In this document: positions 34,762 through 63,180 of the stretch, piece after piece | Layout: each line of letters starts with the position of its first letter | Position numbering within the stretch: position 1 is the first letter of the stretch | NCBI GenBank assembly: GCA_016839655.1 | Contig: JAEOTW010000158.1 | Location: 1 to 64,000 of the forward strand | Reading direction: 5' to 3' | Source of the DNA: Promethearchaeota archaeon | GTDB lineage: Archaea; Asgardarchaeota; Lokiarchaeia; Sigynarchaeales; SOKP01 | DNA length: 64,000 bases | The notes under the pieces: generated by a model | Told to the model about the DNA's origin: nothing | Database searches by the model: none | Seen by the model: only the letters and a program-made list of their open reading frames with translations | Program-made: the position numbers and the translations under genes

Positions 34762-35544
34762 ATGAATGTTATGAAAAAAATACTAATTATTTGTCAAGCA
34801 AGATTTGGGTCCACTCGTCTTCCTGGTAAGGTTCTTAAGAAAGTTGGAGATAGAGAACTTTTATGGTACGAAATTAAAAGATTACAGTTAGTTAAAACGC
34901 AAAATACTATTATATTAGCAACAACTAAAACAGAAAAAGATAAAGAAATAATGTATTTTGCGAATAATAATAATATCAATTGCTTTTTAGGTAGTGAGGA
35001 TGACGTCCTCGATAGATTTTATCAAGCTGCAAAAGAGTATAACGGTGATATAATAGTTAGAATAACTGGTGATTGTCCGTTAATAGATCCTGATGTTATT
35101 GATCAAGCAATAAATATCTTTTTAGAGGGAGATTATGATTATGTTTCAAATGTTGAAGAAAATAAAGAAACTTATCCCGATGGATTAGATGTAGAAGTTT
35201 TTTCATTTCAAGCATTAGAAAGAGCACATCGCGAAGCTAAATGGCAATCTGAAAGAGAACATGTAACCCCTTATATCAGAAAAAATTCGGATAAATTTTC
35301 TCTAAAGCACTTTAGGAATAAAGAGGATCTCTCAAGCTTCCGATTAACTGTTGATACACCTGAGGATTATGAATTCTTATCGTATATCATAAATAATTTC
35401 AAAGATAAGTGGGACAAATTCAGAATGTATGATATAATTGATTATTTAAAAGAAAATCTACCCTTGTTAAAAATAAACGCTCAATATGAACGAAATGAGG
35501 GTTATTTAAAATCAATAAGAGAAGATAAAATTGTTAAAAATTAA
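34762..35544 (+). CDS. spsF: CMP-sugar cytidylyltransferase, SpsF type
   Basis: 260 residues. The N-terminal ILIICQARFGSTRLPGKVL is the hallmark of SpsF/PseF/NeuA-type cytidylyltransferases, with the Arg and Lys that bind CTP. IVRITGDCPLIDPDVID holds the metal-binding Asp. REHVTPYIRKN and FRLTVDTPEDYEFL follow. It probably activates a nonulosonic acid with CTP. Translation may start at either ATG 34762 or the second ATG 34771. It is read with the downstream aminotransferase and neuB genes. Confidence 0.9.
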   Translation: MNVMKKILIICQARFGSTRLPGKVLKKVGDRELLWYEIKRLQLVKTQNTIILATTKTEKDKEIMYFANNNNINCFLGSEDDVLDRFYQAAKEYNGDIIVRITGDCPLIDPDVIDQAINIFLEGDYDYVSNVEENKETYPDGLDVEVFSFQALERAHREAKWQSEREHVTPYIRKNSDKFSLKHFRNKEDLSSFRLTVDTPEDYEFLSYIINNFKDKWDKFRMYDIIDYLKENLPLLKINAQYERNEGYLKSIREDKIVKN

Positions 35545-35550
35545 AAAAAC

Positions 35551-35557
35551 AGGGTGA
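35551..35557 (+). promoter_or_regulatory. Shine-Dalgarno site of the class III aminotransferase
   Basis: AGGGTGA precedes ATT 35564 by six bases and is the only ribosome binding site near the true N-terminus. It lies just behind the SpsF stop. Confidence 0.55.
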
Positions 35558-35563
35558 ATAAGT

Positions 35564-36874
35564 ATTAATTGTGAGAAAGGTATTTCTTTATGGAATAAAG
35601 CTAAAAGATTAATTCCTGGTGGATCCCAACTTTTAACTAAGCGTTCTGAAATGTTTCTACCAGATCAGTGGCCTTCATATTTTGATAAAGCAAAAGGTTG
35701 CGAAATCTGGGATTTAGACGGAAACCATTATTATGACATGACTGTTATGGGTGTAGGAGCATGCACACTAGGATATGCTGATGATGATGTAAATAAGGCT
35801 GTGATAGAAGTAGTTAAAGATGGTTCTATGTCTACTTTAAATAGTCCTGAGGATGTTGAACTTGCTGAATTGTTATTAAAAATACACCCTTGGGCAGAAG
35901 CTGCTCGTTATGCTCGTACTGGTGGCGAAATCATGGCAATTGCCGTCAGAATTGCACGTGCTTACACCAAAAGAGATAAAGTTGCTTTTTGTGGATATCA
36001 TGGATGGCATGATTGGTATTTATCAAGTAATTTAGATAATAATGCAAATCTAGATGGTCATCTCTTACCTGGACTCGATCCAAATGGTGTTCCCAGAGGT
36101 TTAATAAAAACAGCTTTACCGTTTGAGTATAATAAAATAGAGCAATTGGAGTCTATTATTAAAGAGAATGATATTGGGGTTATAGTTCTTGAGCCAATAA
36201 GGCACCAAGAACCAAAAAATAACTTTCTTCAAAGAATTAGAGAAATTGCTGATGATATTGGAGCAATCTTAATTATTGATGAGATCACTGCTGGTTGGCG
36301 GTTAACTTGTGGAGGGGCTCATTTACTCTATGATGTTAATCCAGATATGATGGTTACAGCTAAAGCAGTTAGTAATGGATATCCTATGGCAGCAGTTATT
36401 GGTAAAGCAGAATTAATGGATGCTTCACAAACAAGTTTTATTAGTAGTACTTACTGGACCGAAAGGATTGGTCCTGCTGCTGCTATAGCAACAATCAATA
36501 AAATGCAAAAAGTGAACTTACCTGCTTATTTAGACAAAATAGGTGCATTAATCGGTAAAAACTGGGAAGAGCTAGCGAATAAACACAGTCTAAATTTTTC
36601 AATCTTACCACCCAATGCCTTAGTTACATTTACTATCGATTATGAAAATGCTCTTGAAATTAAGACCCTTTATACGCAAGAGATGCTTAAGAGAGGGTAT
36701 CTTGCTGCAACAAGTGTATATGTTAGCTATGCTCATACTGAGGAAATAGTGAATAAATACATGAAAGATGTTGATGAAGTGTTTGGAATTATAAAAATAG
36801 CGATTGAGCAAAAAACCGTAAGGAAACTCCTTAAAGGTCCAACTGTTCATAGTGGATTCCAAAGATTAACATAA
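35564..36874 (+). CDS. Class III aminotransferase (glutamate-1-semialdehyde aminomutase-like), AUU start
   Basis: PLP enzyme. GHVDxIL-like and Lys-containing regions are represented by IIDEITAGWRLTCGGAHLLY and DMMVTAKAVSNGYPMAAVIGK, the latter carrying the Schiff-base Lys. In this cluster such proteins are thought to act on a sugar-derived keto group rather than on glutamate semialdehyde. ATG at 35651 would cut off the conserved N-terminus, because the codons before it encode ISLWNKAKRLIPGGSQLLTK, the usual start of the family. No ATG, GTG or TTG exists between the TGA at 35555 and 35651. ATT at 35564 follows GGGTGA with six to seven bases and is the best start. Confidence 0.88.
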   Translation: MNCEKGISLWNKAKRLIPGGSQLLTKRSEMFLPDQWPSYFDKAKGCEIWDLDGNHYYDMTVMGVGACTLGYADDDVNKAVIEVVKDGSMSTLNSPEDVELAELLLKIHPWAEAARYARTGGEIMAIAVRIARAYTKRDKVAFCGYHGWHDWYLSSNLDNNANLDGHLLPGLDPNGVPRGLIKTALPFEYNKIEQLESIIKENDIGVIVLEPIRHQEPKNNFLQRIREIADDIGAILIIDEITAGWRLTCGGAHLLYDVNPDMMVTAKAVSNGYPMAAVIGKAELMDASQTSFISSTYWTERIGPAAAIATINKMQKVNLPAYLDKIGALIGKNWEELANKHSLNFSILPPNALVTFTIDYENALEIKTLYTQEMLKRGYLAATSVYVSYAHTEEIVNKYMKDVDEVFGIIKIAIEQKTVRKLLKGPTVHSGFQRLT

Positions 36875-36903
36875 AGATTATTAAAAAATAAGAAAGATAA
36901 AAA

Positions 36904-37947
36904 ATGAAAGATATAATAATAGGTAATAAAAAGATTGGAGAAAATCAACCCACTTTTATAATTGCTGAAGCCGGTTCTAATCATAATCGTGATTTAGAAC
37001 AAGCTAAAAAATTAATTGAGATTGCCGCAGAATCTGAAGCAGACGCTGTAAAGTTTCAAACTTATTCTGCAGAAACTATGTATTCTAAAAAAACTGTTAC
37101 ACCTGATTATCTTGAAGGAAAGATAGAACAAAAATCCGTATGGCAATTAATTAAAGATATTGAACTTCCAAGGGAATGGCAAGGTGAATTAGCGGATTTC
37201 GCTAAATCTCATGGATTGATCTTCCTCTCTACACCTTTTGACTATCAAGCTATTAAAGAGTTAGAAGAATTGAATGTTCTTGCTTATAAAGTTGCCTCTT
37301 TTGAAATAGTGGACTTACAATTTCTAAAAGAGATTGCTAAAACAAAAAAGCCAATTATTTTATCCACTGGAATGGCAAGTATGGGTGATATTGAGGATGC
37401 AGTAAATGCTATAAAAGAAATTGGTGATATCGATATAGCTTTACTTCATTGCGCTATAAACTATCCGCCACCAATTGAAGATTTAAATTTAAGGGTAATT
37501 AAGACGTTAGCAAAAGCATTTCAAGTTCCCGTAGGATTCTCTGATCATACAATGAGTACATATCTACCATCAATTTGTGTGACTCTTGGAGCATGTATTA
37601 TTGAGAAACATTACACTGTTAGTAGATCATTAAAAGGGCCAGATCATAAATTTGCTTTAGAACCTAAGGAATTAAAACTCATGATTAAAAATATTAGAGA
37701 AACTGAAACTGCTTTAGGTAGTTCTATAAAAAAAATAGCAGAATCAGAAAAGAACTTGTATAAACTCGCTAGGAGGAGTGTTATTGCAGCAAAAAAAATT
37801 CCCGCAGGAAAAGTAATAGAAAAATCTGATCTTATTATAAAACGTCCTGGTTATGGAATTCCTCCAAAATTTCTTGATATAATAGTAGGTCGAGAGGCTA
37901 GAAAAGATATAGACGAAGATGACATAATTACTTGGGATATGATATAA
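36904..37947 (+). CDS. neuB: NeuB-family nonulosonic acid synthase
   Basis: Condenses a hexosamine derivative with phosphoenolpyruvate to make a nine-carbon sialic, legionaminic or pseudaminic acid. The TIM-barrel part has FIIAEAGSNHNRDLEQAKKL, DAVKFQTYSAE and VGFSDHTMS, with His residues in EKHYT that bind metal and substrate. A C-terminal SAF (antifreeze-like) domain starts at about residue 285 (RRSVIAAKKIPAGKVI). The length of 347 is typical. Which nonulosonic acid is made cannot be told from this gene alone. The next gene overlaps its stop codon by one base. Confidence 0.95.
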   Translation: MKDIIIGNKKIGENQPTFIIAEAGSNHNRDLEQAKKLIEIAAESEADAVKFQTYSAETMYSKKTVTPDYLEGKIEQKSVWQLIKDIELPREWQGELADFAKSHGLIFLSTPFDYQAIKELEELNVLAYKVASFEIVDLQFLKEIAKTKKPIILSTGMASMGDIEDAVNAIKEIGDIDIALLHCAINYPPPIEDLNLRVIKTLAKAFQVPVGFSDHTMSTYLPSICVTLGACIIEKHYTVSRSLKGPDHKFALEPKELKLMIKNIRETETALGSSIKKIAESEKNLYKLARRSVIAAKKIPAGKVIEKSDLIIKRPGYGIPPKFLDIIVGREARKDIDEDDIITWDMI

Positions 37948-46162: not shown

Positions 46163-47311
46163 ATGATACAGCCTCATGGTGGTAATTTAATTAATAAAAA
46201 TTTGCCAAAAGTTGAAAAAGAGAGAATCCAAAGAGAAATTGATGAATTTGAAACAATTACAGTAAATCCCCAAACAATAAAAGTAATTAAGAACATTGGT
46301 TTTGGAGTTTTTAGCCCATTAGAAGGATTTATGAATGAAAATAATTATAAATTTGTTCTTGAACACATGTACTTAGAAAATAATGTTGCTTGGCCTTTTC
46401 CAATTGTATTGGATATTTCGGAAACATTAGCGAAAGCCCTCAAAATTGATGATAGAGTCATATTAACAGACCCAACAGAAAAACCAATTGCTCTTATGGA
46501 TATAGAAGATATATATAGTTATGATAAGAAAGTATTTGCTAAAACAGTTTATGGAACATTAGATCGTGATCATCCAGGGGTAGATTCTGTATATCGCATG
46601 AAAGAAAGGTTAATTGGGGGAGAAATTTTTATTATTAATGAACCTGCATCTGTATTTCCCGAATTGGATCTAAAACCTATAGAGACAAGAGTACTATTTA
46701 AACAAAAGAAGTGGGACAGAGTAGTGGCCTTTCAAACGAGAAATCCTCCTCATCTTGGTCATGAATATGTACAAAAAGCAGGATTAACATATGTAGATGG
46801 TATTTTTATTAATCCCGTGATTGGTATGAAGAAAGTTGGAGATTTCTTAGATGAAGTAATAATAAAATCCTATCAAGCCCTAATTGATGAGTATTACCCC
46901 AAAGATAGAGTTGTGTTAAGTACATTTGAAACTGAAATGAGATATGCAGGCCCTAAAGAAGCTATTTTCCATGCGATAGCTAGAAAGAATTTTGGATGTG
47001 ATCACATAATAATTGGACGAGACCATGCAGGAGTGGGTGATTATTATGGTCCTTACGATGCTCATAAAATTTTTGAACACTTCCCTGATCTTGGTATTGA
47101 ACCAATCAAATTCCGGTCATTTTCAAAATGTGACAAATGTAATTCAATAGTAAATGATAAAATTTGCCCACATCCGCCAAAAATGCAAAATTTTTTCGCA
47201 GGTAGAGAAATACGAAATGCATTAAGGTCAGGAAAATCTCCAAGTTCAGAAGTAATGCGCCCTGAAGTAGCTAAAATTATTCTGGAATATAATAATCCAT
47301 TCGTCTCTTAA
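46163..47311 (+). CDS. sat: ATP sulfurylase
   Basis: Makes adenosine 5'-phosphosulfate from ATP and sulfate. The 382-residue single-domain enzyme has FQTRNPPHLGHEYVQK (Q-x-RNPPHxGH), IIGRDHAGVGDYYGPYDA and MRPEV. The late CDKCNSIVNDKICPHPP is a zinc-binding loop seen in archaeal and some bacterial enzymes. APS kinase follows two genes later, so the aim is PAPS rather than dissimilatory reduction. An RHH gene lies upstream, and a T-run follows the stop. Confidence 0.96.
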   Translation: MIQPHGGNLINKNLPKVEKERIQREIDEFETITVNPQTIKVIKNIGFGVFSPLEGFMNENNYKFVLEHMYLENNVAWPFPIVLDISETLAKALKIDDRVILTDPTEKPIALMDIEDIYSYDKKVFAKTVYGTLDRDHPGVDSVYRMKERLIGGEIFIINEPASVFPELDLKPIETRVLFKQKKWDRVVAFQTRNPPHLGHEYVQKAGLTYVDGIFINPVIGMKKVGDFLDEVIIKSYQALIDEYYPKDRVVLSTFETEMRYAGPKEAIFHAIARKNFGCDHIIIGRDHAGVGDYYGPYDAHKIFEHFPDLGIEPIKFRSFSKCDKCNSIVNDKICPHPPKMQNFFAGREIRNALRSGKSPSSEVMRPEVAKIILEYNNPFVS

Positions 47312-47320
47312 TTTTTTTTT
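47312..47320 (+). terminator. T9 run after sat
   Basis: Nine consecutive T follow the sat stop codon at once. Archaeal termination often uses T-tracts. Because the next gene starts 34 bases later, it could also be a weak internal attenuator. Confidence 0.35.
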
Positions 47321-47354
47321 AAATTTCAATAAAATAAATCATAATACATATAAA

Positions 47355-48743
47355 ATGAATCAAAATAGTAGAAAATTAATTGTTATAGGATTAGATTGTG
47401 CTACACCAAGAACTCTATTTGAGGAATTTATAGACGATTGCCCTAATATAAAAAAAATGATTGAGCAGGGTGTTTATGGTAAGTTAAGAACATGTAACCC
47501 CCCTATTACTATTCCTGCTTGGATGGTGATGTCCACAGGTAAAAAAGCGGGAACTTTAGGTTTATATGGATTTAGACACAGAAAAAAGAATTCTTATGAT
47601 GACTATTGGATTGCAACATCTTATAAAATAAAGGAACCAAAAATTTGGGATATTATAGGAAAGAAAGGTCTTAAATCCTGCATTTTAGGACTACCTCCAA
47701 CCTATCCTGTTCAAAAAATAGAAGGCTATTTGGTTTCTGGTTTTATCACTCCTGATATAGATTCTGAATATACATATCCCCCTGAATTAAAAGAAGAAAT
47801 TAAAGAACACATTGGAAAATATATTTTAGATGCTAATTTTAGAGTAGAAGATAAAAAAATCTTATTGAAAGAAATATATGAAATGACAAGGGTTCAATTT
47901 AAAACTATAAAATATTTGATGCAAAATAAGGAATGGGATTATTTTAATTTTGTAATTATAGGTTTAGATAGATTTCATCATGCTTTTTGGAAGTATTATG
48001 ATAAAAACCATATTAAATACGAACCTGGTAATAAGTTTGAAGGAGAAATGAAAAAATATTATCAATTTCTTGATCAAGAAATTGGAGAAATTTTAGATTT
48101 GCTTGATGAAAATACAATCACGATGATCGTATCAGATCATGGTGCAAAAGCAATGAAAGGTTTAGTATGTGTAAATATGGCACTTGAAGAATTGGGCTTA
48201 TTAAAATTCAAAGCTAAGCCAAAGCCAGGAACAAGATTAGCAGATGCCGATATAGATTGGTCCAATACATATGCATGGGGCTGGGGAGGGTATTATGCGA
48301 GAATTTTTCTTAATCTTAAAGGAAGAGAACCTCACGGTATCATCAAAGAAAAAGATTATGAAAAAATTCGAGAAAATGTCATTAATAAGCTAAAATCAAT
48401 AAAAGATAATAATGGAAATTCAATGAATACAATTATTTTCAAACCGGAAGAATTATTTGAGGTTTTAAATGGAGATCCACCTGACCTAATGGTCTATTTC
48501 GACGATTTAAATTGGAGATCTGCCGGAACAGTTGGATATGAATCAATGTATTTAGATGAAAATGATACTGGTCCTGATGACGCAGTTCACGATTGGTTTG
48601 GAGTATATATTATTCATGACCCTAGTTATACATCTGGAAAAAATTTAGGAGTCAAGAATATACTTGATATTGCTCCTACTTCTTTGAAAATATTAGGCGT
48701 TGAAGTGCCTAGAGATATGGAAGGTAATATTATAGATATTTAA
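47355..48743 (+). CDS. Alkaline-phosphatase-superfamily phosphodiesterase
   Basis: A 462-residue type I phosphodiesterase/nucleotide pyrophosphatase-like enzyme. Asp14 lies in VIGLDCATPR, the probable nucleophile Thr52 in PPITIPAWMVMSTGKK, and further metal ligands in LDRFHHAFWK, MIVSDHGAKAMKG and DAVHDWFGVY. No signal peptide or membrane helix is seen, so it is intracellular. It lies between sat and cysC, with 43- and 17-base gaps. This suggests a role in PAP/PAPS or sulfated-intermediate turnover, but the substrate is unproven. Confidence 0.85.
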   Translation: MNQNSRKLIVIGLDCATPRTLFEEFIDDCPNIKKMIEQGVYGKLRTCNPPITIPAWMVMSTGKKAGTLGLYGFRHRKKNSYDDYWIATSYKIKEPKIWDIIGKKGLKSCILGLPPTYPVQKIEGYLVSGFITPDIDSEYTYPPELKEEIKEHIGKYILDANFRVEDKKILLKEIYEMTRVQFKTIKYLMQNKEWDYFNFVIIGLDRFHHAFWKYYDKNHIKYEPGNKFEGEMKKYYQFLDQEIGEILDLLDENTITMIVSDHGAKAMKGLVCVNMALEELGLLKFKAKPKPGTRLADADIDWSNTYAWGWGGYYARIFLNLKGREPHGIIKEKDYEKIRENVINKLKSIKDNNGNSMNTIIFKPEELFEVLNGDPPDLMVYFDDLNWRSAGTVGYESMYLDENDTGPDDAVHDWFGVYIIHDPSYTSGKNLGVKNILDIAPTSLKILGVEVPRDMEGNIIDI

Positions 48744-48760
48744 AAAAAAATTGAAAAGAA

Positions 48761-49303
48761 ATGGAACATAAAGGATTTACGTTATGGTTTACAGGGCTTC
48801 CTTGTTCAGGTAAAAGTGTCCTTGCAGATGCTGTTGCTGAAGAATTAAAAATGAAAGGAATGAAAGTGGAACGACTAGATGGAGATATTGTTAGGAGGAG
48901 TTTAACTAAAGATCTTGGTTTCTCTGAAGAAGATCGGAATATGAATATTGAAAGGGTTACATTTGTTGCAAAATTATTGACTAGAAATGGAGTTGCTGTA
49001 CTAGCATCCTTTGTATCACCTTATAATAAGATTAGAGCATACTCTAGAAAAGAGATTGGAAATTACATTCTTGTATATGTGAAATGTTCTCTTCAAGAAT
49101 GCGAAAATCGAGATGTTAAAGGAATGTATGCAAAAGCTAGAGCTGGCGAAATAAATGATTTTACTGGGATCGATCATCCTTTTGAAGAACCTGATTCTGC
49201 GGATATAATTGTTGAGACAGATAAGCAAACGGTTGAGGAAAGTAAAGATATTATGTTAAAAGCTTTACTTCAAATGGGATATTTACCTAATAAAAATAAA
49301 TAA
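48761..49303 (+). CDS. cysC: Adenylylsulfate kinase
   Basis: Phosphorylates APS to PAPS, the sulfate donor for sulfotransferases. 180 residues: the P-loop is GLPCSGKS at residues 12-19, LDGDIVRRSLTKDLGFSEEDRNMNIER binds APS, and VKCSLQECENRDVKGMYAKARAGEI, GIDHPFEEPDSAD follow as in all CysC. It is co-directional with sat and the phosphodiesterase gene. No sulfotransferase is seen in the window. Confidence 0.96.
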   Translation: MEHKGFTLWFTGLPCSGKSVLADAVAEELKMKGMKVERLDGDIVRRSLTKDLGFSEEDRNMNIERVTFVAKLLTRNGVAVLASFVSPYNKIRAYSRKEIGNYILVYVKCSLQECENRDVKGMYAKARAGEINDFTGIDHPFEEPDSADIIVETDKQTVEESKDIMLKALLQMGYLPNKNK

Positions 49304-51138: not shown

Positions 51139-52140
51139 CTAGGTTAAATTAGATTTATTGGATAATATGTAATTTTTAAGTTTTTCTTGACTATAGAATT
51201 CTACAGGAGGTAGAGATGCAGCAAGAGCAGCAGCATAGAGAGCGATATTTACACCATCTATTGTAGGTATTTTAGACGCATGTGATAAACCTAAAACAGC
51301 CATAACAACGCTTCCTACTGCTACATAACTTCTTACTGGTTGTTGTAATATCGGTTGTATTTTTTCTATTTTGTCATTTTCTTTTGAAAAAAGAAACGAC
51401 TCTAACTCTAAATAATTCAAAAGTACATTTTTAGATTTAGATGCATTCAATATTCTTTTTCCCGCTATGGTAACACTAGTTTCGTTGCAACAGTCAATTG
51501 AAAAGGTATCTAAGGCTTTCTGAAGATTAATTTTTATTAATTCTACATTTTCATATAGGTAATAATTTGTCATAGTAGGACGAGCGATTATAGGGATATT
51601 TTTATAGTGCTCTTCCAAAAAACGTAATAACTCTTGTATAAATTGATCATTAAAGATTCCCCCCAATCCATAATCTAAAATTAATATCGCTCCGATATCC
51701 TGAGAACTATTAGCTATTAGATCCTTGAATTTTTCTCGTATTGATTGAGATATATCACTATTGTAATCTGTTTCCAACCTTAATAAGTGTTGGTTCATTG
51801 CTTTTATCCTGGTAATCTGAGGTGTTTTAATTTTCTCATTAACAAGAATCCCAGAAATCTGAAGATTTAGTTCTTTAATTTTCTTTAGAAAAAATTCCCC
51901 TTCAAAATCATTCCCAATAATTGTACATACTTCAGGAATGCCACCTAATGATTGAATAAATTGGAGAACAAGCCCAATAGCTCCAATATAAGTATTGCTA
52001 TTTTCTATTTTTACATTTGGGACAGGTGCATCTGGAGAAATCCTATCTGTAAAACCAAAAATATACTTATCTATTAATGCATCTCCAATGACTAAAACTT
52101 TCTTCTTATTCCATTTAGAAATTTCATCAATAAGAACCAT
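51139..52140 (-). CDS. Degenerate HldE/RfaE-like PfkB-family protein
   Basis: 333 residues resembling the kinase half of HldE (D-glycero-D-manno-heptose-7-phosphate kinase): VLVIGDALIDKYIFGFTDRISPDAPVPNVKIE at the N-terminus. The catalytic GAGD motif is AVGS (residues 274-277), so the Asp base is Ser277 and the first Gly is Ala. The Gly-Gly-Ala-Asn substrate loop is also altered (YIGAIGLVLQFIQSLGG). The fold is likely kept but phosphotransfer is not expected. It could be a regulatory or scaffolding subunit within the heptose operon. HddA in the same operon provides a live kinase. Confidence 0.82.
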   Translation of the reverse strand: MVLIDEISKWNKKKVLVIGDALIDKYIFGFTDRISPDAPVPNVKIENSNTYIGAIGLVLQFIQSLGGIPEVCTIIGNDFEGEFFLKKIKELNLQISGILVNEKIKTPQITRIKAMNQHLLRLETDYNSDISQSIREKFKDLIANSSQDIGAILILDYGLGGIFNDQFIQELLRFLEEHYKNIPIIARPTMTNYYLYENVELIKINLQKALDTFSIDCCNETSVTIAGKRILNASKSKNVLLNYLELESFLFSKENDKIEKIQPILQQPVRSYVAVGSVVMAVLGLSHASKIPTIDGVNIALYAAALAASLPPVEFYSQEKLKNYILSNKSNLT

Positions 52141-52149
52141 AATTTTGCC

Positions 52150-52806
52150 TTATTTTTTTAATTCTCTCTGTAATTTTTCCCAATCTTTAAGAAATGCGTC
52201 TAAACCTTGATCTGTGTTAGGGTGTTTGAACATTTTTTCTAACACAGAAAATGGAATAGTGGCAATATGTGCTCCTATTTTAGCAGATTCAATAACATGT
52301 CTAGTGTTTCTTACCGAAGCTACAATTAGTTCAGATTTGAAATCGTATGCATTCAAAATGTCCATACATTCCCAGAGAAAATCAATTTCATTCTGACCAT
52401 TATCCATCAGTCTTCCAATAAAGGGACTTATATAAGAAGCACCAGCTTTAGCTGCAATTAAAACTTGATTTTGTGAGAACACAAGAGTAACGTTGGTTTT
52501 TATACCTTCCGATTCAAGTAGTTTAACAGCTTTTATACCATCCTTAGTAAAAGGAATTTTGATTACTATATTCGATGCAATTTTAGCTAATTCCCGTGCT
52601 TCATTAACCATTTTTTCCGTGGTTAATCCGATAACTTCTCCACTTACAGGCCCATCAACGATTTCACAGATTTTCTTCAATTGATCCATGGGATCTGCCC
52701 CTTCCTTTGCTAATAACGTTGGATTAGTAGTCACTCCATCTATTATTCCAAGTTCCTGCATTTCTGTAATCTGATCCAAATTAGCAGTGTCTATAAAAAA
52801 TTTCAT
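52150..52806 (-). CDS. tal: Transaldolase / fructose-6-phosphate aldolase family
   Basis: A 218-residue small transaldolase (TalC/MipB type). [31 protein letters not shown] is the start signature. Schiff-base Lys lies in [38 protein letters not shown] follows, and [11 protein letters not shown] is represented by [13 protein letters not shown]. It should transfer dihydroxyacetone units to give sedoheptulose-7-phosphate, the GmhA substrate. It follows gmhB on the same strand. Confidence 0.93.
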
Positions 52807-52849
52807 ATTTCTTCACGATTAATTTTGGTGATTATAATAATTATTTGTT

Positions 52850-53398
52850 TTATATATTTATAGCAAATTCTTTTAAGTTTTTGAATATCATATCCGGTAT
52901 TATAGAGCCAATCTTTTTTTGTTCCTCCTTACCATAACCTGTTAAGACTAATACTGTTTTACAATTTGCTGCTTGACCAGTTTGAATGTCATTTAGTGTA
53001 TCTCCAATCACATAAGATTGGGTTAAATCAATATTATATTTTAATTTAGCTTTTAAAATCATTCCCGGATTTGGCTTCCTGCATCCACATGAACCAGTAA
53101 AGTCAGGGTGATGAGGACAATAATAAATATCATCAAGTTCAACACCATTTTGGATTAAATTATTAATCATTTTTTTATGTATCGCTTTAAGGGTTTCTTC
53201 GGTAAAATAACCTCGTGCTATACCAGCCTGATTAGTAATTATAATAAGTAGATATGTTTTTTGCTTAAGAATTTTCAATGCTTCAATTGAACCTTCAATA
53301 AATTCAAACATTTCTGGATTAGAAAGATAACTGACCTCCTTATTTATAACACCATCTCGATCTAAGAAAATTGCTTTATTTTTTTCACTCATTTTCAT
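52850..53398 (-). CDS. gmhB: D-glycero-D-manno-heptose-1,7-bisphosphate phosphatase
   Basis: A 182-residue HAD phosphatase: IFLDRDGVINKEVSYL is motif I, IIITNQAGIARGYF is motif II, and CPHHPDFTGSCGCRKPNPGM is the zinc loop of GmhB with the conserved Lys. YVIGDTLNDIQTGQAANC is motif IV. Removal of the 7-phosphate gives heptose-1-phosphate. The start overlaps the end of rpe by 14 bases (a second ATG lies two codons downstream). HisB-N is the main alternative, but context favours GmhB. Confidence 0.9.
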   Translation of the reverse strand: MKMSEKNKAIFLDRDGVINKEVSYLSNPEMFEFIEGSIEALKILKQKTYLLIIITNQAGIARGYFTEETLKAIHKKMINNLIQNGVELDDIYYCPHHPDFTGSCGCRKPNPGMILKAKLKYNIDLTQSYVIGDTLNDIQTGQAANCKTVLVLTGYGKEEQKKIGSIIPDMIFKNLKEFAINI

Positions 53399-54020
53399 CA
53401 GAATACTTAAGTAACTTAATGATTTTGTTCGGATCTTCAGCTTTTAAAATTGTACTAGCACTTGTTAAGATATCTGTGTTTTTTAATTGCTTAGCATTTG
53501 TTAAATCTATTCCCCCATCAATATCAATAATAAAATCATATTTTTTCTTATATTGAGATAAAATATTTACTTTTTCTATAGAAGCATTTATAAATTTTTG
53601 ACCTGACCAACCAGGTAGAACACTCATTATCAAAACTAGATCAATTTTGTTTAGATATGGAATGATATCATTAACATTAGTCTTTGGATTAATAGCAACA
53701 CCCACTTGTTTATTATAAGTCTTTACTTCTTTTATGATATCAGTAAGTTTATTATTACTTTCAAAATGAAATAAGAATATATCAATAAAATTAATAATTT
53801 TTTTAATATACTCAAAAGGGTTAACCACCATTAGATGTGCAATTATAGGTGTATCGAAAGATTCTTTTATTTTCTTAAAAACATCCAGATTATTACATTC
53901 ATTATTTACAAAAAAACCGTCCATGAAATCTATATGAATGTAATCATAACCTTCTAATCCTTTTAATATGTCCACTGTAAAATCTTCAATAGCGTGAATT
54001 GATATTGCAATTTTTTTCAT
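53385..54020 (-). CDS. rpe: Ribulose-phosphate 3-epimerase
   Basis: A 211-residue TIM barrel: KKIAISIHAIEDFTVDIL, YIHIDFMDGFFVNN, IIAHLMVVNPFEYIKK, VLIMSVLPGWSGQKF and FIIDIDGGIDLTNAK. His and Asp metal ligands in HID, DFMDG, AHLM and IDGG are kept. I chose ATG 54020, ten bases after the gmhA stop, over the Met 11 codons upstream inside gmhA. It interconverts ribulose- and xylulose-5-phosphate for the transketolase reaction in the same operon. Confidence 0.9.
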   Translation of the reverse strand: MKKIAISIHAIEDFTVDILKGLEGYDYIHIDFMDGFFVNNECNNLDVFKKIKESFDTPIIAHLMVVNPFEYIKKIINFIDIFLFHFESNNKLTDIIKEVKTYNKQVGVAINPKTNVNDIIPYLNKIDLVLIMSVLPGWSGQKFINASIEKVNILSQYKKKYDFIIDIDGGIDLTNAKQLKNTDILTSASTILKAEDPNKIIKLLKYSDENE

Positions 54021-54030
54021 GAAAAATCGA

Positions 54031-54597
54031 TTACTTGAAAAGTTCTTTTTCAACTAAATAACAAATAATATGACCTACTGTTATGTGACCTTCTTGAATT
54101 CGGGGAGTATCTGTTGAGGGTATCTTTAAACATATATCTGCTATTTCTTCGATTTTATTTTGTTTCTGGCCAGTAAAACCAATTGTTATTGCTCCTTTCT
54201 CTTGAGCTTTTAATAGACCTTTTATCACGTTAGGAGAATTTCCAGAAGTACTTAATCCAATAGCTATATCTCCCTTCTCGACAAATGATGATACCTGTCT
54301 TTCAAATACTAAGTCATAACCAAAATCATTAGCTATGGCTGTAAGTACAGAAGTATTAGTATGGAATGCTAAGGAGGGAAGCGATTCCCGATCTTTATAA
54401 AATTTTCCCACAAATTCAGCAGCGATGTGTTGGGCATCAGCAGCACTACCTCCGTTGCCGAAAAGAACAACTTTCTTCTTATTATTATAGGCATTTATTA
54501 TTTCTTTTGATACTTTCGATATAACAGGAGCTAAGTTTTTTATAGCTTCTTTAACCTTAATACTTTCTTCTAAAATTGAAATGATTTCATTTTCCAT
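54031..54597 (-). CDS. gmhA: Sedoheptulose-7-phosphate isomerase
   Basis: 188-residue SIS-domain isomerase: VVLFGNGGSAADAQHIAAEFVGKFYKDRESLPSLAF is the classic GmhA start, then LTAIANDFGYDLVFERQV, IGLSTSGNSPNVIKGL and a late EGHITVGHIICYLVE with metal-binding Glu and His. It converts sedoheptulose-7-phosphate to D-glycero-D-manno-heptose-7-phosphate. It is preceded by hddA in the same operon. Confidence 0.95.
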   Translation of the reverse strand: MENEIISILEESIKVKEAIKNLAPVISKVSKEIINAYNNKKKVVLFGNGGSAADAQHIAAEFVGKFYKDRESLPSLAFHTNTSVLTAIANDFGYDLVFERQVSSFVEKGDIAIGLSTSGNSPNVIKGLLKAQEKGAITIGFTGQKQNKIEEIADICLKIPSTDTPRIQEGHITVGHIICYLVEKELFK

Positions 54598-54628
54598 TTT
54601 CTTATCTCTTAAACTAATTAACTAATCT

Positions 54629-55651
54629 TTAATTTAATTTCCAAACTTCAAGTCCCTTAGGATTAAAATGAAAATTAACAATTGTACCACCAATTTTTTC
54701 TAATTCTTGAATCACTATATATTTTTTATTAGGATCTGAGAATAGTAATAGATGTCCTCCTCCTCCAGCACCTAATAATTTTCCTCCTAGAACCCCAAAT
54801 TTTCTTGAAGTAATATAGAAATTTTCAATGTTTCGATTAGAAATTTTATCACTTAAACTCTTTTTTGCAATCCACCCTTCATGTAGAAGATTTCCAAATT
54901 CATTTAATTGATCTATATTATTAAATTCTATAATTTTTCTCATAGACTGAGCAACATCTTTTAAATCTTGCATAGCTTCAACAAAAATTTTTTTTTCAAC
55001 TTCATATCCCTTTAATACCTCATCTTGGATATTAGAAGAAAAATGAGAACCTCCAACATAGCATAGGATTAAACGAAATTGAAGCTCGTTAATCATTTCT
55101 TGGCTAGTCTCTATTGGAATTAAATTAATTTTATCTGTAAATTCGATAAAATTAAAGCCCCCACAGGCTGCAGCAAATTGATCTTGATATCCTCCTTTCT
55201 GCTTTAATTCAATTCGTTCAACATCATAAGCTTTTTGAGCGATTTCATAATTGGAAAGTCCTAAACTATAAAATTTATTTAATGCCCCTATTAACGCAAC
55301 ACATAAAGAAGAAGAACCCCCCATTCCTGATCCCGCAGGAAGTTCTGAATGAAATGTAATATCAAATCCATCCTTTATTTTCAAAACATTAAAAATACCT
55401 TTGAAAAGTTCATAGTCAGTAGAATAGTCTGAATCTCCAATCTCAAAAATGAAATTTCTTTTGAGATTAATTGAATATATACCTACTTTTTTGTCAATCC
55501 TTGGTTTTAAGGTAATGTATACATGACGATCTATTGTAGTACTTATTACACATCCTCCATGCTCCGTACAATATGGAGCCATGTCTGTTCCTCCGCCACC
55601 AAAACTGACGCGAAATGGTGCTTTTGAACGAATTATCATATCTTTTTCCAT
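54629..55651 (-). CDS. hddA: D-glycero-D-manno-heptose-7-phosphate kinase
   Basis: A 340-residue GHMP kinase. RSKAPFRVSFGGGGTDMAPYCTEHGG is the HddA N-terminal motif, ELPAGSGMGGSSSLCVALIGAL is the ATP-binding GHMP loop, and LGGKLLGAGGGGHLLLF is the C-terminal motif. HddA phosphorylates the 1-position to give heptose-1,7-bisphosphate, the GmhB substrate. It is the first gene of the eight-gene minus-strand operon. A divergent epimerase gene starts 177 bases away. Confidence 0.92.
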   Translation of the reverse strand: MEKDMIIRSKAPFRVSFGGGGTDMAPYCTEHGGCVISTTIDRHVYITLKPRIDKKVGIYSINLKRNFIFEIGDSDYSTDYELFKGIFNVLKIKDGFDITFHSELPAGSGMGGSSSLCVALIGALNKFYSLGLSNYEIAQKAYDVERIELKQKGGYQDQFAAACGGFNFIEFTDKINLIPIETSQEMINELQFRLILCYVGGSHFSSNIQDEVLKGYEVEKKIFVEAMQDLKDVAQSMRKIIEFNNIDQLNEFGNLLHEGWIAKKSLSDKISNRNIENFYITSRKFGVLGGKLLGAGGGGHLLLFSDPNKKYIVIQELEKIGGTIVNFHFNPKGLEVWKLN

Positions 55652-58050: not shown

Positions 58051-61000
58051 TTATTCTTTCTTAAAATTAAATGTAATAGTTTTTATAGAATCTTCACTTA
58101 TTTTGGTGTTACAATAGGGGCAGTTAACATCTTTTTGTTTTTTCAATTTAGAAACAAGATTATCTCTTAATGAAGCAGAGCACTCTTTATTAGGACATAT
58201 GTTTAATTTACCAAAAATTTTACCATTTTCTGCTTTAAGATCGTTGGTTTCTACTTGAAAACTTTTAGCTGTAACTTTCTCTACAATATTTTCTTTGTTC
58301 TGTTCAATATATTCTTTTAAATAATCAGTATTTGTTCCAAAACTTAATATTATTGATTCACCAACTTTATACTTATTTTTCTTTCGAGAAAATTGAATAT
58401 TTCTAATTAATTCACTGACAACTCTTTCAGCTAATAATTCACCATCCAAACTTATATCTAGATATATGTTGCAAAATTTTGTCTCTGCCTTAAGTAATCT
58501 GTCTGAACATTTCACTGATTTAAGAATATTTAATTTTTTAACATTTCCAAGATTTTGGATCACTTCTGGAAAATTAATTTCAGGCATTCCCTCTTTTGGT
58601 TCAATAATTAGTTCCTTATTAGGCCACCTTAATCTTAAGTTATTTTCAACTTTCAAAGCTCTTAAATGTTCTATTAAATCCCTTGTAAAATCCATCTGTT
58701 CCTCAAGTTTAAGATCAATTTCTTTTTCATTAAAGTCAGGCCAATCATGCAGGTGAATACTCTGTGTATATTCTGACTTTATATATGGTTTAAACATTTT
58801 GAGATATAGTTCTTCAGAGATCATAGGGTTAATAGGTGCTAATAATAAGAGGATTTTGTAGAGAGCATCATATAGAACTTTCATTATTACTAATTTATTT
58901 GTATCTTCTGAATAAAGATCTAATTTTTCCCGATTAAGTAGGATATACCATCTACTAATATCGTTAACAATAAGATCTCTGACCTCTCCAGGTATCCAAG
59001 GTAAGTGATAATCTTCTGCGAGTTCTGAAACTCTCTTAATCGTTGATTCCACCCTTGAAATGACCCATTTATCTAATCTACTTAGTGATTTTATATCATA
59101 TTTAACTTTAGAGGGATTAAAATCAGCTAATTGATATTTACCATTCGCGTAAACATAGACATTCCAAATAGTATTTAGGATCTTATAAGTATCAGCATAT
59201 TCCTTAACATTGAAGTTAAAATCACGACCAGGCTGAGTTACTCCTATCGCATAAAACCTAAATGTTTCAATTCCTTTAATATCTGAATATTTCTTGTTTC
59301 TTTCTAGTTCTTTGATAGTTCCATCTATTATATCTTCAGGCAATATTGTAGTTCCCTTAGATTTACTCATCTTCATTTTATCTCTCAATGTCCATCCATG
59401 CATATAACACGCATTGTAATTTTTTCTTCCTGAAGAAACCATTGCACTATTTAAAAGACTGTTAAACCATCCCCGGATTTGATCTTTGCCTTCTAGTATA
59501 AAGTCTAATGGTTCCCAAGTATTAAAATGACTTTCTCCATCATATACTTCTTGAGCAGCCCAAACAACTGAACCTGAGTCTAACCAGACGTCTAAAATGT
59601 CGTTTATTCTCTTTTTAGTACCTTTTTTGCATTTTTTGCATTTCCATGTAACTTTATCTATCCATGGTCGATGCAGATCATCCGGAATTTCACCCGTAAG
59701 CTCTTTTAACTCCTTACCAGAGCCTATTACAATAATATCTTCACATTCTTTATTATCACATATCCATACACTTAATGGTATTCCCCAAAATCGCTGTCTC
59801 GAAATACACCAATCCTTTAGAGTGGATAACCAGCTTTTAAACCATCGATTACCTGCCCAATCTGGGACCCAATATATTTCTTCATTTTTCTCAAGAAGTT
59901 GAGGTACAAGACTTTCTGTTCGGAAAAACCATTGTTCTGTAGCGCGGTAAACTAATTTAGAATCGCATCGCCAGCAATGAGCATATTCGTGTTCTATTTC
60001 ACTAGTATGAATTAAAGTCCCTTTATCCTTTAAGATTTTTAAAATCTCTTCGTTTGCATCGAATACAAATTTACCCTTAAATTTCCCTGCTTCATCCGTA
60101 TAAAGCCCATTGATATCTACTGGATTAAATACTGGTATATTATTAGCTACACCCACTTCGAAATCTTCAGGTCCATGTCCAGGAGCCGTATGAACTAAAC
60201 CAACCCCCTCTGATGCTGAAACATATTCTTCAGAAAGAATTATAGTATGAACTTTTTCACTTTGTTTTGCTAATTCATTTTGGTAAGGAACTTCATCTAA
60301 TAAAGGATGGATGTATTTTTTTCCTTCTAATTGTTCTCCGTAATAGTCTTCCACAATTTTATATTTATAGCCTAACTCCCCAGAAATTAGGTGTGTTATC
60401 GAATTTTTTGATAATATCCAATATTCTTTTAGATCCTCAATAAATACTTTAGCATACTCAGCAATCGGATTTACCATAATAGCAGAGTTAGCAACCAATG
60501 TCCAAGGCGTAGTAGTCCAAATAATAAAATAAGTATCATCGATATCTTCTGATTTTATTTTTAAGAATAAACTAGTGTCTATAATATTTTTATATTCATG
60601 TTCATGCTTAGCTAAAGCAGTTGCACATCGAGGGCAACAGTTTAGAGGGCGATAAAATTTATAGAGTAAATTGTTTTCCCAAGCTTTCTTCAATGTCCAC
60701 CAAATTCCCTCTATGTAACTGTTTCTAAATGTAATATAAGGATTATCCCAGTCCCAGAAATAGCACCCCAATCGTTTAAATTGTTCATTCATTATTGCTA
60801 GATTTTTTAAAGCAAACTCTTTACAATTCACTATAAACTTATCTATTCCATAATTTTGTATCTCTTGTTTGTTCTTAATGCCTAATTCTTTTTCCATTTG
60901 AACTTCGATAGGTAATCCATGTGTATCATAGCCAGGAGTATCATTGACTTTATAACCTTTCATTCGTTTATATTTTATTAAGTAGTCCTTCAAGATCTTA

Positions 61001-61188
61001 TTCCAGGCAGTCCCTAAATGAATAGACCCAGTAGTATATGGTGGACCATCAATAAATCGCCATTTTTCTTTTCCTTCTTCTTTTTTCCTAATTAAAGAGT
61101 ATATATCCTCTTCTTTCCAATATTTTAATATGTTTTCTTCTAAATCTGCTAAATTCAGTCTTTTTTCTAGTTCTTCCACGAAAATCAT
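58051..61188 (-). CDS. ileS: Isoleucyl-tRNA synthetase
   Basis: Class I synthetase of 1045 residues that charges tRNA-Ile. The HIGH motif is HLGT at residues 57-60 (PPYTTGSIHLGTAWNK), and KMSKSKG lies near residue 605. The editing CP1 domain sits between about 190 and 400, with YDTHGLPIE before it and GPGHGPEDFEVG-like VHTAPGHGPEDFEVG in it. CRPLNCCPRCATALAKHE is the internal zinc motif. The C-terminus ends with CPNKEC and CPYCNTK, a second zinc ribbon. All motifs are intact. Confidence 0.98.
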   Translation of the reverse strand: MIFVEELEKRLNLADLEENILKYWKEEDIYSLIRKKEEGKEKWRFIDGPPYTTGSIHLGTAWNKILKDYLIKYKRMKGYKVNDTPGYDTHGLPIEVQMEKELGIKNKQEIQNYGIDKFIVNCKEFALKNLAIMNEQFKRLGCYFWDWDNPYITFRNSYIEGIWWTLKKAWENNLLYKFYRPLNCCPRCATALAKHEHEYKNIIDTSLFLKIKSEDIDDTYFIIWTTTPWTLVANSAIMVNPIAEYAKVFIEDLKEYWILSKNSITHLISGELGYKYKIVEDYYGEQLEGKKYIHPLLDEVPYQNELAKQSEKVHTIILSEEYVSASEGVGLVHTAPGHGPEDFEVGVANNIPVFNPVDINGLYTDEAGKFKGKFVFDANEEILKILKDKGTLIHTSEIEHEYAHCWRCDSKLVYRATEQWFFRTESLVPQLLEKNEEIYWVPDWAGNRWFKSWLSTLKDWCISRQRFWGIPLSVWICDNKECEDIIVIGSGKELKELTGEIPDDLHRPWIDKVTWKCKKCKKGTKKRINDILDVWLDSGSVVWAAQEVYDGESHFNTWEPLDFILEGKDQIRGWFNSLLNSAMVSSGRKNYNACYMHGWTLRDKMKMSKSKGTTILPEDIIDGTIKELERNKKYSDIKGIETFRFYAIGVTQPGRDFNFNVKEYADTYKILNTIWNVYVYANGKYQLADFNPSKVKYDIKSLSRLDKWVISRVESTIKRVSELAEDYHLPWIPGEVRDLIVNDISRWYILLNREKLDLYSEDTNKLVIMKVLYDALYKILLLLAPINPMISEELYLKMFKPYIKSEYTQSIHLHDWPDFNEKEIDLKLEEQMDFTRDLIEHLRALKVENNLRLRWPNKELIIEPKEGMPEINFPEVIQNLGNVKKLNILKSVKCSDRLLKAETKFCNIYLDISLDGELLAERVVSELIRNIQFSRKKNKYKVGESIILSFGTNTDYLKEYIEQNKENIVEKVTAKSFQVETNDLKAENGKIFGKLNICPNKECSASLRDNLVSKLKKQKDVNCPYCNTKISEDSIKTITFNFKKE

Positions 61189-61493: not shown

Positions 61494-63149
61494 CTATCTT
61501 AAACAGAAACCACATTTTCCAAATGATTTTATAGTCTGTTCCCAACAATGATTATGGTATGCTCGATTACAATGTGGGCATTCTGTATGGCAGTTGTCAT
61601 CTCCAGCTATTTTTTTAGTACAACTAGGACATTCTATTTTGTGACATATAACACATGAAACTACAGATACTTCGAATATTTTTTTAGAAATTAAATTAAA
61701 TAAATCAACAAGATAACTAAAAGGGGTCCATTCTTTAAAAAAATCATTGAATGAAGCATGTAAATCATTTTTTATTTTTTCATGAGCTTCAAGTTCAAAT
61801 TCATTTATTACTTTCACTTCAGGCATTTTCATTGGATAATCTATAGGTAAATTAATCTGAAATTTAAAAGTGAGATCTTCTGTTTTCATTTTACCCCTCA
61901 TCTCAACGTGCAAATTTGCTGATAATGGGTCAAACTTTATATTTTTATAATGATCTTTTAATAGATCAATTTCAAAATTAATCCTTGAATTTTTATCTAC
62001 TAACCAGGATATTTCTCTCACAAGTTCTACTGGTTCGGTTTCATTTTTTATCCAACTTTGATAAGCATTTAACTCTTCAGTAGGTTTTTTAATTATTTCT
62101 TGTAATCCCGTATCCAACTCAATATTGGGAGGATTTGGATAAGGTTCCAAGTCAATTTCCATTATATATTCTCTAAAACCATATGTAAGTAAAACTACTT
62201 TCAATTTAGTTAAGCTATTAGGAATCTTTTCGCACTGATATTCGCCAGAGATTTTTTTTGACTGTATCTCGATTTCTTTTATAAAATATAGTTTCTTTTC
62301 TAATTTACGCAAAATATCTACGATATGCACTGGCTTTTTAGGATCCCAATTTTTTAAAATGTCGATAGTTTCATAAGGATCTCCTAATATATTTTTAATT
62401 TCATCTGGAAATGTTATATCTGGTTTTTTTGGATAATTCATGAAATCAATTGTAATTATAAATGTTCTTGTAAGAGTTATAGTAATGTACACATTGATAA
62501 ATGCCCCCCTAGAGTCAGGTTGATCATAAGCATATTCTTGTTGAATTAAACTTAATTCGGTATTGATTAAAACATCTAAGGTTTCATTTTCTTCTATTAT
62601 ATGGTCACTAGAGGGTGTAATGGGTTCAAAATCTGAATTAAGATCTTGTGAGGAACTAATTGGTGGTTTTTCAGCAAAAAATAGATCATCCGCTAAATCT
62701 GAAGTAGCAATATATTCATCATATGGAAAATCTGGAGGATAGGCATTTAAATCGGGTGTAATAAACTCTTCTTTTTCAGAAGCGGTTTTATCAAGATGTT
62801 TTTCTCCAAGTTTTTTTGCTTCTTCTTCTATATTTTTTTCTGAAGCCTTTAAAGCACTTTGAATTTTAGACTTTAACTCATCAACAATATCTAATACAGT
62901 AGAGTTCGGTGTCCAATTAATTAAATAATTTAAATCGAAAATACCTAATAATTCATTTATTTCTTTATGATAAATCATCTGTGGGAGAGAATTTGGAAAT
63001 TGATTATCAAATTTTATTTCTAATTCATATTTTATTTCTGAAGTTTCATATACATAGCCATACAAATGAGTTATATTTCCCGAAACCATCCAAAAAGAAT
63101 ATTTTTTTGCGATTTTTTGAGCTTCAATTAATATTCTTTGTCTATCCAT
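61494..63149 (-). CDS. Protein with four UBC/RWD-like repeats and a RING-like zinc module
   Basis: About 551 residues. Four successive units look like the ubiquitin-conjugating (UBC)/RWD fold, at about 10-100, 215-292, 298-395 and 400-495. Each has a strand-rich part, a P-x2-P-like turn (FPNSLPQMIY, YPKKPDITF, YPNPPNIEL, YPMKMPEVKV), a W-x-P or W segment and an amphipathic helix. None has a Cys at the E2 active-site position, so they are probably non-catalytic. An acidic linker spans about 105-200. The C-terminus has C499, C502, C507, C510, C520, C524, C527, H532, C535, C546 and C549, ending YHNHCWEQ and CGFC, which matches the bacterial/archaeal RING-like (Prok-RING) pattern. ATG 63149 is chosen over GTG 63158. 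A scaffold or E3-like role in an Asgard ubiquitin system is inferred. Confidence 0.75.
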   Translation of the reverse strand: MDRQRILIEAQKIAKKYSFWMVSGNITHLYGYVYETSEIKYELEIKFDNQFPNSLPQMIYHKEINELLGIFDLNYLINWTPNSTVLDIVDELKSKIQSALKASEKNIEEEAKKLGEKHLDKTASEKEEFITPDLNAYPPDFPYDEYIATSDLADDLFFAEKPPISSSQDLNSDFEPITPSSDHIIEENETLDVLINTELSLIQQEYAYDQPDSRGAFINVYITITLTRTFIITIDFMNYPKKPDITFPDEIKNILGDPYETIDILKNWDPKKPVHIVDILRKLEKKLYFIKEIEIQSKKISGEYQCEKIPNSLTKLKVVLLTYGFREYIMEIDLEPYPNPPNIELDTGLQEIIKKPTEELNAYQSWIKNETEPVELVREISWLVDKNSRINFEIDLLKDHYKNIKFDPLSANLHVEMRGKMKTEDLTFKFQINLPIDYPMKMPEVKVINEFELEAHEKIKNDLHASFNDFFKEWTPFSYLVDLFNLISKKIFEVSVVSCVICHKIECPSCTKKIAGDDNCHTECPHCNRAYHNHCWEQTIKSFGKCGFCLR

Positions 63150-63180
63150 AAAAGTCACATTAAAACAAATAATTGTTATT

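Follow-up and report, generated by a model that had tools for sequence, protein, structure and literature searches.

Eukaryotic ubiquitin ligases are the best-known proteins in which tandem E2/RWD domains are followed by a RING. The nearest described layout is that of FANCL, for which the excerpted text of PMC4543658 gives a non-catalytic E2-like fold, a double RWD and a C-terminal RING. BRE (BRCC45, BABAM2) is a UEV-RWD-UEV tandem according to part of PMC7692841. An archaeal RING protein is known as well: the small RING finger protein srfp of Caldiarchaeum is a RING E3 encoded in a ubiquitin operon, and the portion of PMC5654768 that describes it mentions no fused UBC/RWD domains. Asgard UEV/Vps23 proteins have an E2 fold without the catalytic Cys and bind ubiquitin; in the passages concerned of PMC9192718 the UEV is combined with ESCRT-I parts rather than with a RING. 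Here, a 64,000-nucleotide stretch (the window) of contig JAEOTW010000158.1 from a Promethearchaeota archaeon of the Lokiarchaeia (assembly GCA_016839655.1) was analysed. It encodes a 551-amino-acid protein in which four E2/RWD-type units (D1 to D4) precede a zinc module that models as a RING. We regard this protein, on balance, as a putative E3 of the RING type that serves an Asgard ubiquitin-like pathway, or else as the RING-bearing subunit or the scaffold of such an E3.

A sequence-only reading of this DNA had proposed a UBC/RWD-like pattern, repeated four times and devoid of an active-site Cys. The AlphaFold model of the full protein (mean pLDDT 68.1, pTM 0.52) contains four units at the places then proposed, each composed of a helix, 3-4 strands and helices of the E2/RWD type; residues 107-205 are unstructured and the zinc part is of low confidence. 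D2, D3 and D4 are chained in the model: the end helix of D2 continues into D3 as its opening helix, and that of D3 does the same in D4 (Table 1). The UBC/RWD fold was found in the model for D1, D3 and D4, and D2 was assigned through its profile likeness to D1 and D3 and the order of its secondary structure. In the family alignment no Cys is conserved at the active-site position of catalytic E2s in any of the four units. Cys makes up no more than 20% of every column in D1, D2 and D4, and the Cys present at D3 residue 306 in 57% of 188 sequences lies at the start of D3, away from the E2 active site.

The units were compared with each other by hhalign, and D1-D4 with 29 windows from other proteins as a control. 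The similarity of the repeats is above chance, because the scores between units (D1-D2 82.8, D1-D3 67.8, D1-D4 56.1, D2-D3 108.6, D2-D4 34.9) exceed the best control score of 18.7. When the shared helices were left out, scores of 84.7 (D2-D3), 59.1 (D1-D2), 55.3 (D1-D4) and 46.3 (D1-D3) were obtained, but D2-D4 fell to 24.3 and D3-D4 to 17.6, the latter at control level, which for these shorter cuts is the value from the longer ones. Against catalytic E2s, D1 scored 53.9 and D4 38.4; D2 (17.2) and D3 (8.5) stayed at control level. On these profiles, D1, D2 and D3 are repeats of one another, and D1 and D4 are related to catalytic E2s. The whole protein passes two Pfam cut-offs, that of UQ_con with 31.4 bits vs 27 and that of RWD with 30.2 bits vs 22.8. 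The D4 piece alone passes RWD (24.1 vs 22.8), the D1 piece alone is below UQ_con (19.3 vs 27), and Pfam searches with the separate D2 and D3 pieces gave no relevant match.

The C-terminus, which had been read as RING-like, is predicted to adopt a RING cross-brace fold rather than an unrelated ribbon. A 79-residue model of the zinc module has a pLDDT of 77.3. Every Foldseek match of this model lies above E 0.05; among the 50 structural matches listed, which include an APC/C chain, 42 come from RING/U-box ligases or from complexes with such ligases, and the other 8, all from spliceosome entries, were presumably matched through the Prp19 U-box. Ligand conservation was counted over the RING segments of the window and of the fetched loci, 41 distinct ones in all. 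Ten of the 12 Cys/His ligands are invariant (41/41), C524 is kept in 40/41 and H534 in 37/41, the latter being replaced by Cys in three segments and by Ser in one (L039). The ligand spacing (C-x2-C, C-x2-C, C, C-x2-C, H-x-H-C, C-x2-C) aligns in the profile register with RBX1, including the cysteines and the histidine that we take to be the ligands of the third RBX1 zinc. The sequence-only reading had the type of zinc cluster right and overlooked this specific three-zinc spacing, which by analogy suggests a third zinc in the Asgard protein. The extra CxxC, Cys and His also occur in RBX1, RBX2 and APC11, small proteins that partner cullins or the APC/C, whereas the Asgard RING is fused to RWD domains. 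RBX1 further has C-x-H where the Asgard RING has C524-x2-C527, and Asp in place of C549.

Among PDB sequences, the RING profile matches Pirh2 (E 3.5e-4), RBX1 (E 5.5e-4) and also RBX2. In a column-shuffle control the ligands alone retained about half of the RBX1 score, and shuffled columns reached the real score in 1 of 100 trials for RBX1 and in 0 of 100 for Pirh2. The curated RBX1/APC11 models of Pfam score below cut-off (zf-rbx1 12.1 vs 31, zf-ANAPC11 11.5 vs 25). A PHD or zinc-ribbon identity, indicated by scattered weak Pfam matches, was rejected as unsupported by the structural matches.

With the full model, Foldseek placed chain L of the Fanconi core complex, which we take to be FANCL, first (E 1.1e-6, 376 columns, 373-residue chain). 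The TM-scores of this match, 0.20 and 0.26, are low, which would be expected if the domains are oriented differently. Chain C of BRCA1-A (6gvw) ranked second, followed by further entries. Chain e of the RQC complex, presumably Ltn1, was matched by both the full and the RING model; Ltn1, a ribosome quality-control E3, is a long protein made of repeats and has just one RWD. FANCL represents a described layout close to that of the Asgard protein, with the same kinds of domain in the same order (E2-like, RWD, RING), where the sequence-only reading had known of none. It differs in having three units, an E2-like domain and a double RWD, as opposed to four, in giving no significant sequence match, and in a RING that is not known to have the third-zinc insertion. 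A three-domain relative of the Asgard protein keeps three units and the RING. FANCL_d1 was found in 2 of 24 members with a best E of only 0.043, no FANCL_C was reported, and plain FANCL orthology was rejected for lack of sequence support. We liken the window protein to FANCL in layout and to RBX1 in its apparent zinc pattern, and claim membership in neither family.

The protein belongs to a conserved Asgard family. A protein search returned 319 homologues at E <= 1e-3, and among the 120 listed all named ones are Asgard. Their functional labels in the source databases go no further than 'ubiquitin-protein ligase' or 'E2 variant', and no NCBIfam family was found to cover the multi-RWD RING protein; an NCBIfam match to adenine phosphoribosyltransferase (16.3 bits vs a cut-off of 243) was set aside as chance. 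In open-licence PubMed Central, preprints being outside the scope, there was no paper joining 'Asgard archaea' with 'RWD domain' or 'Asgard' with 'FANCL', and no paper title on such a protein. The multidomain E2 homologues of Helarchaeota and Sigynarchaeota mentioned in an excerpt of PMC11354881 may include members; the excerpt of PMC10936438 does not name the protein.

The family profile matches in 73 of the 227 genomes of the phylum, often by D2 or D3 alone, and RING-bearing members, typed from the profile-match table, occur in 39. Database entries for a divergent form with four units carry the name Sigynarchaeota; those for a short form of ~420 amino acids, which consists of D2-D3-D4 and the RING without D1, carry the name Helarchaeota. 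Additional RING-bearing paralogues are present in the same genomes. At one locus (L063:590-1249) a D2-like stretch that matches the family profile is fused to a Prok-JAB domain (27.9 bits vs 25), and many genomes of the phylum contain proteins of similar length with a D2-like match. A truncated copy of the N-terminal part of the gene lies upstream of the full gene at another locus (L076:5078-5446). One protein of an Asgard-phylum genome (L073, G162:C270) is labelled Bathyarchaeota in its public source (P0167), probably from a mislabelled bin.

The proposed scaffold or E3-like role is independently supported by E1-E2-JAMM linkage in the related short form. An E1-like ThiF gene directly follows the three-domain family gene on the same strand in three genomes (G090, L066; G091, L068; G089, L081), and in G090 the order is family gene, E1, then E2 and JAMM genes. 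Altogether, 33 loci have a called family gene, and E1 adjoins it at 3 of them; L074 was left out of this count, its family gene being masked by a longer ORF that overlaps it. The same E1 and E2 types occur together in two Lokiarchaeal genomes (L011 and L012; phmmer E 7.9e-83 and 1.4e-80 for E2, 2.7e-130 and 9.3e-128 for E1). On shared contigs, E2 lies 2 kb (G090, with E1 between), 27 kb (G094), 33 kb (G001), 38 kb (G007), ~137 kb (G122) and ~202 kb (G116) from the family gene. In the 227 genomes the linked E2 type and the RING-bearing family are both present in 33, the family only in 6, E2 only in 30 and neither in 158 (p 1.9e-16), but this pattern follows lineage. The Lokiarchaeal genome G001 has several ubiquitin-type cassettes: two loci (L013, L014) each with Ub-like, E1 and E2 genes, L013 also with a JAMM-like gene, and a third (L015) with JAMM, E1 and E2 genes.

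Tandem inactive E2-like domains together with a RING form a ligase-like layout, and the protein is therefore probably a ligase or ligase scaffold. The computed basis of this reading comprises the tandem non-catalytic E2/RWD domains, the modelled RING fold and the E1-E2-JAMM adjacency in the three-domain form. The RING would bind a charged E2, most likely of the linked type, and promote transfer, and the three-zinc spacing may stabilise it as in RBX1. D1 and/or D4 could hold ubiquitin or an E2, and the helix-linked D2-D3-D4 arm might position the substrate, by analogy with FANCL, in which the E2-like domain binds ubiquitin, the double RWD binds substrate and the RING binds E2. Several observations weigh against a ligase. 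A fourth genome with the three-domain form (G088, L080) lacks the E1 adjacency, 30 of the 63 genomes with the linked E2 type are without a family protein, and within the 83-genome block the co-occurrence (33/6/30/14) has p 0.067. Against the RING itself, the curated RING models score below cut-off (zf-RING_2 15.1 vs 27.3, Prok-RING_1 16.1 vs 29.1 bits), the module departs in part from canonical residues at its E2-contact positions, and RH_dom matches as many members (27/41).

The main alternative, possible although rather unlikely, is a scaffold that reads ubiquitin or holds E2 but does not act as a ligase, similar to BRE or a UEV adaptor. Its row of E2-like domains would then bind ubiquitin, E2 or JAMM proteins, and its RING would have a purely structural role. 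The atypical E2-contact positions would fit such a scaffold, as would the second rank of the BRCA1-A chain, the D2-like fusion to a JAMM-type domain in L063 and the ubiquitin binding reported for Asgard UEV proteins in passages of PMC9192718. Pfam BRE scored 25.9, 24.8 and 30.7 bits in three members preselected for a BRE tag, reaching the cut-off of 25.8 in two; none was reported for the window protein. However, BRE has no RING, whereas in the Asgard family alignment no part is better conserved than the RING, with residue 501 hydrophobic in 40/41 and residue 551 basic in 34/41 segments. A regulator of E1-E2 transfer, whose E2-like domains occupy E1 or partner the linked E2 as UEVs do, is improbable: E1 is a direct neighbour in three genomes and D1 and D4 are E2-related without the Cys, but the conserved RING is left unexplained. 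Least probable is a membrane-traffic scaffold whose zinc module is a Rubicon-homology-like domain binding small GTPases, since RH_dom, despite matching 27/41 members (E up to 1, best 1.7e-4) and 19/24 full-length ones (best 6.2e-4), covers in the window protein just the last ~65 of 206 profile positions at 17.5 bits vs a curated cut-off of 28.1, and no Rubicon-titled entry stands among the 60 PDB sequence and 50 structural matches listed, which is not exclusionary.

The start of the gene was set at the ATG because the family alignment favours it over an in-frame GTG 9 bases upstream (63158), which would add 3 amino acids; with the GTG start the ORF spans 61494-63158 on the minus strand.

Table 1. 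Features of the multi-RWD RING gene in the window; residues are counted from the ATG at 63149.
Feature	Position	Strand	Residues and remarks
Whole gene	61494..63149	minus	551 aa, ATG start at 63149
D1, E2-like (UEV-like) domain without catalytic Cys	62826..63149	minus	1-108
Linker, predicted disordered	62586..62825	minus	109-188; length variable across family
D2, RWD-type repeat	62241..62585	minus	189-303; AlphaFold and hhalign
D3, RWD-type repeat	61950..62324	minus	276-400; helix 276-303 common with D2
D4, UBC/RWD/UEV-like domain	61650..62033	minus	373-500; helix 373-400 common with D3
RING (predicted)	61497..61655	minus	499-551
RING ligands (predicted)			C499 C502 C507 C510 C520 C524 C527 H532 H534 C535 C546 C549
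Putative third zinc site	61548..61631	minus	C507, C510, C520, H534; by analogy with RBX1

A gene at 58051-61188, which we take to be isoleucyl-tRNA-synthetase-like, is the next same-strand gene after the family gene at 10 of 10 loci (L001-L010), with an opposite-strand ORF between the two at one of them. A functional coupling was set aside: the neighbour is strongly kept, yet has no evident link to ubiquitin. This archaeal window also carries a heptose-pathway-like gene run (51139-55651), with GmhB over its cut-off (206 bits vs 178) and an HddA-like kinase, a GmhA-like isomerase and an RfaE-domain-I-like kinase below theirs. A nonulosonic acid type cluster (34762-37947) has a NeuB/PseI-like synthase (PseI 340.6 bits vs 340.25) alongside KDO-cytidylyltransferase-like and aminotransferase-like genes. 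Sulfate adenylyltransferase and adenylyl-sulfate kinase genes, both over their cut-offs, lie at 46163-49303, and loci L071 and L079 have similar gene strings close to the family gene.

The archaeal RING E3 treated in PMC5654768 is a small RING finger protein; the Asgard candidate is large and multi-domain. It is a soluble-looking candidate that could be combined with the E1 and E2 linked to it to rebuild an E1-E2-E3 cascade of Asgard archaea. We consider it doubtful that Asgard archaea already had a FANCL-type multi-RWD architecture with an RBX1-type three-zinc RING as the dedicated E3 of one of their own E1-E2-JAMM pathways, and that this stock gave rise to the tandem RWD scaffolds found in ubiquitin ligases (FANCL) and deubiquitinase complexes (BRE) of eukaryotes. 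If Asgard archaea do have a large ligase of FANCL-like build, elaborate multi-domain E3 architecture would be older than eukaryotes.
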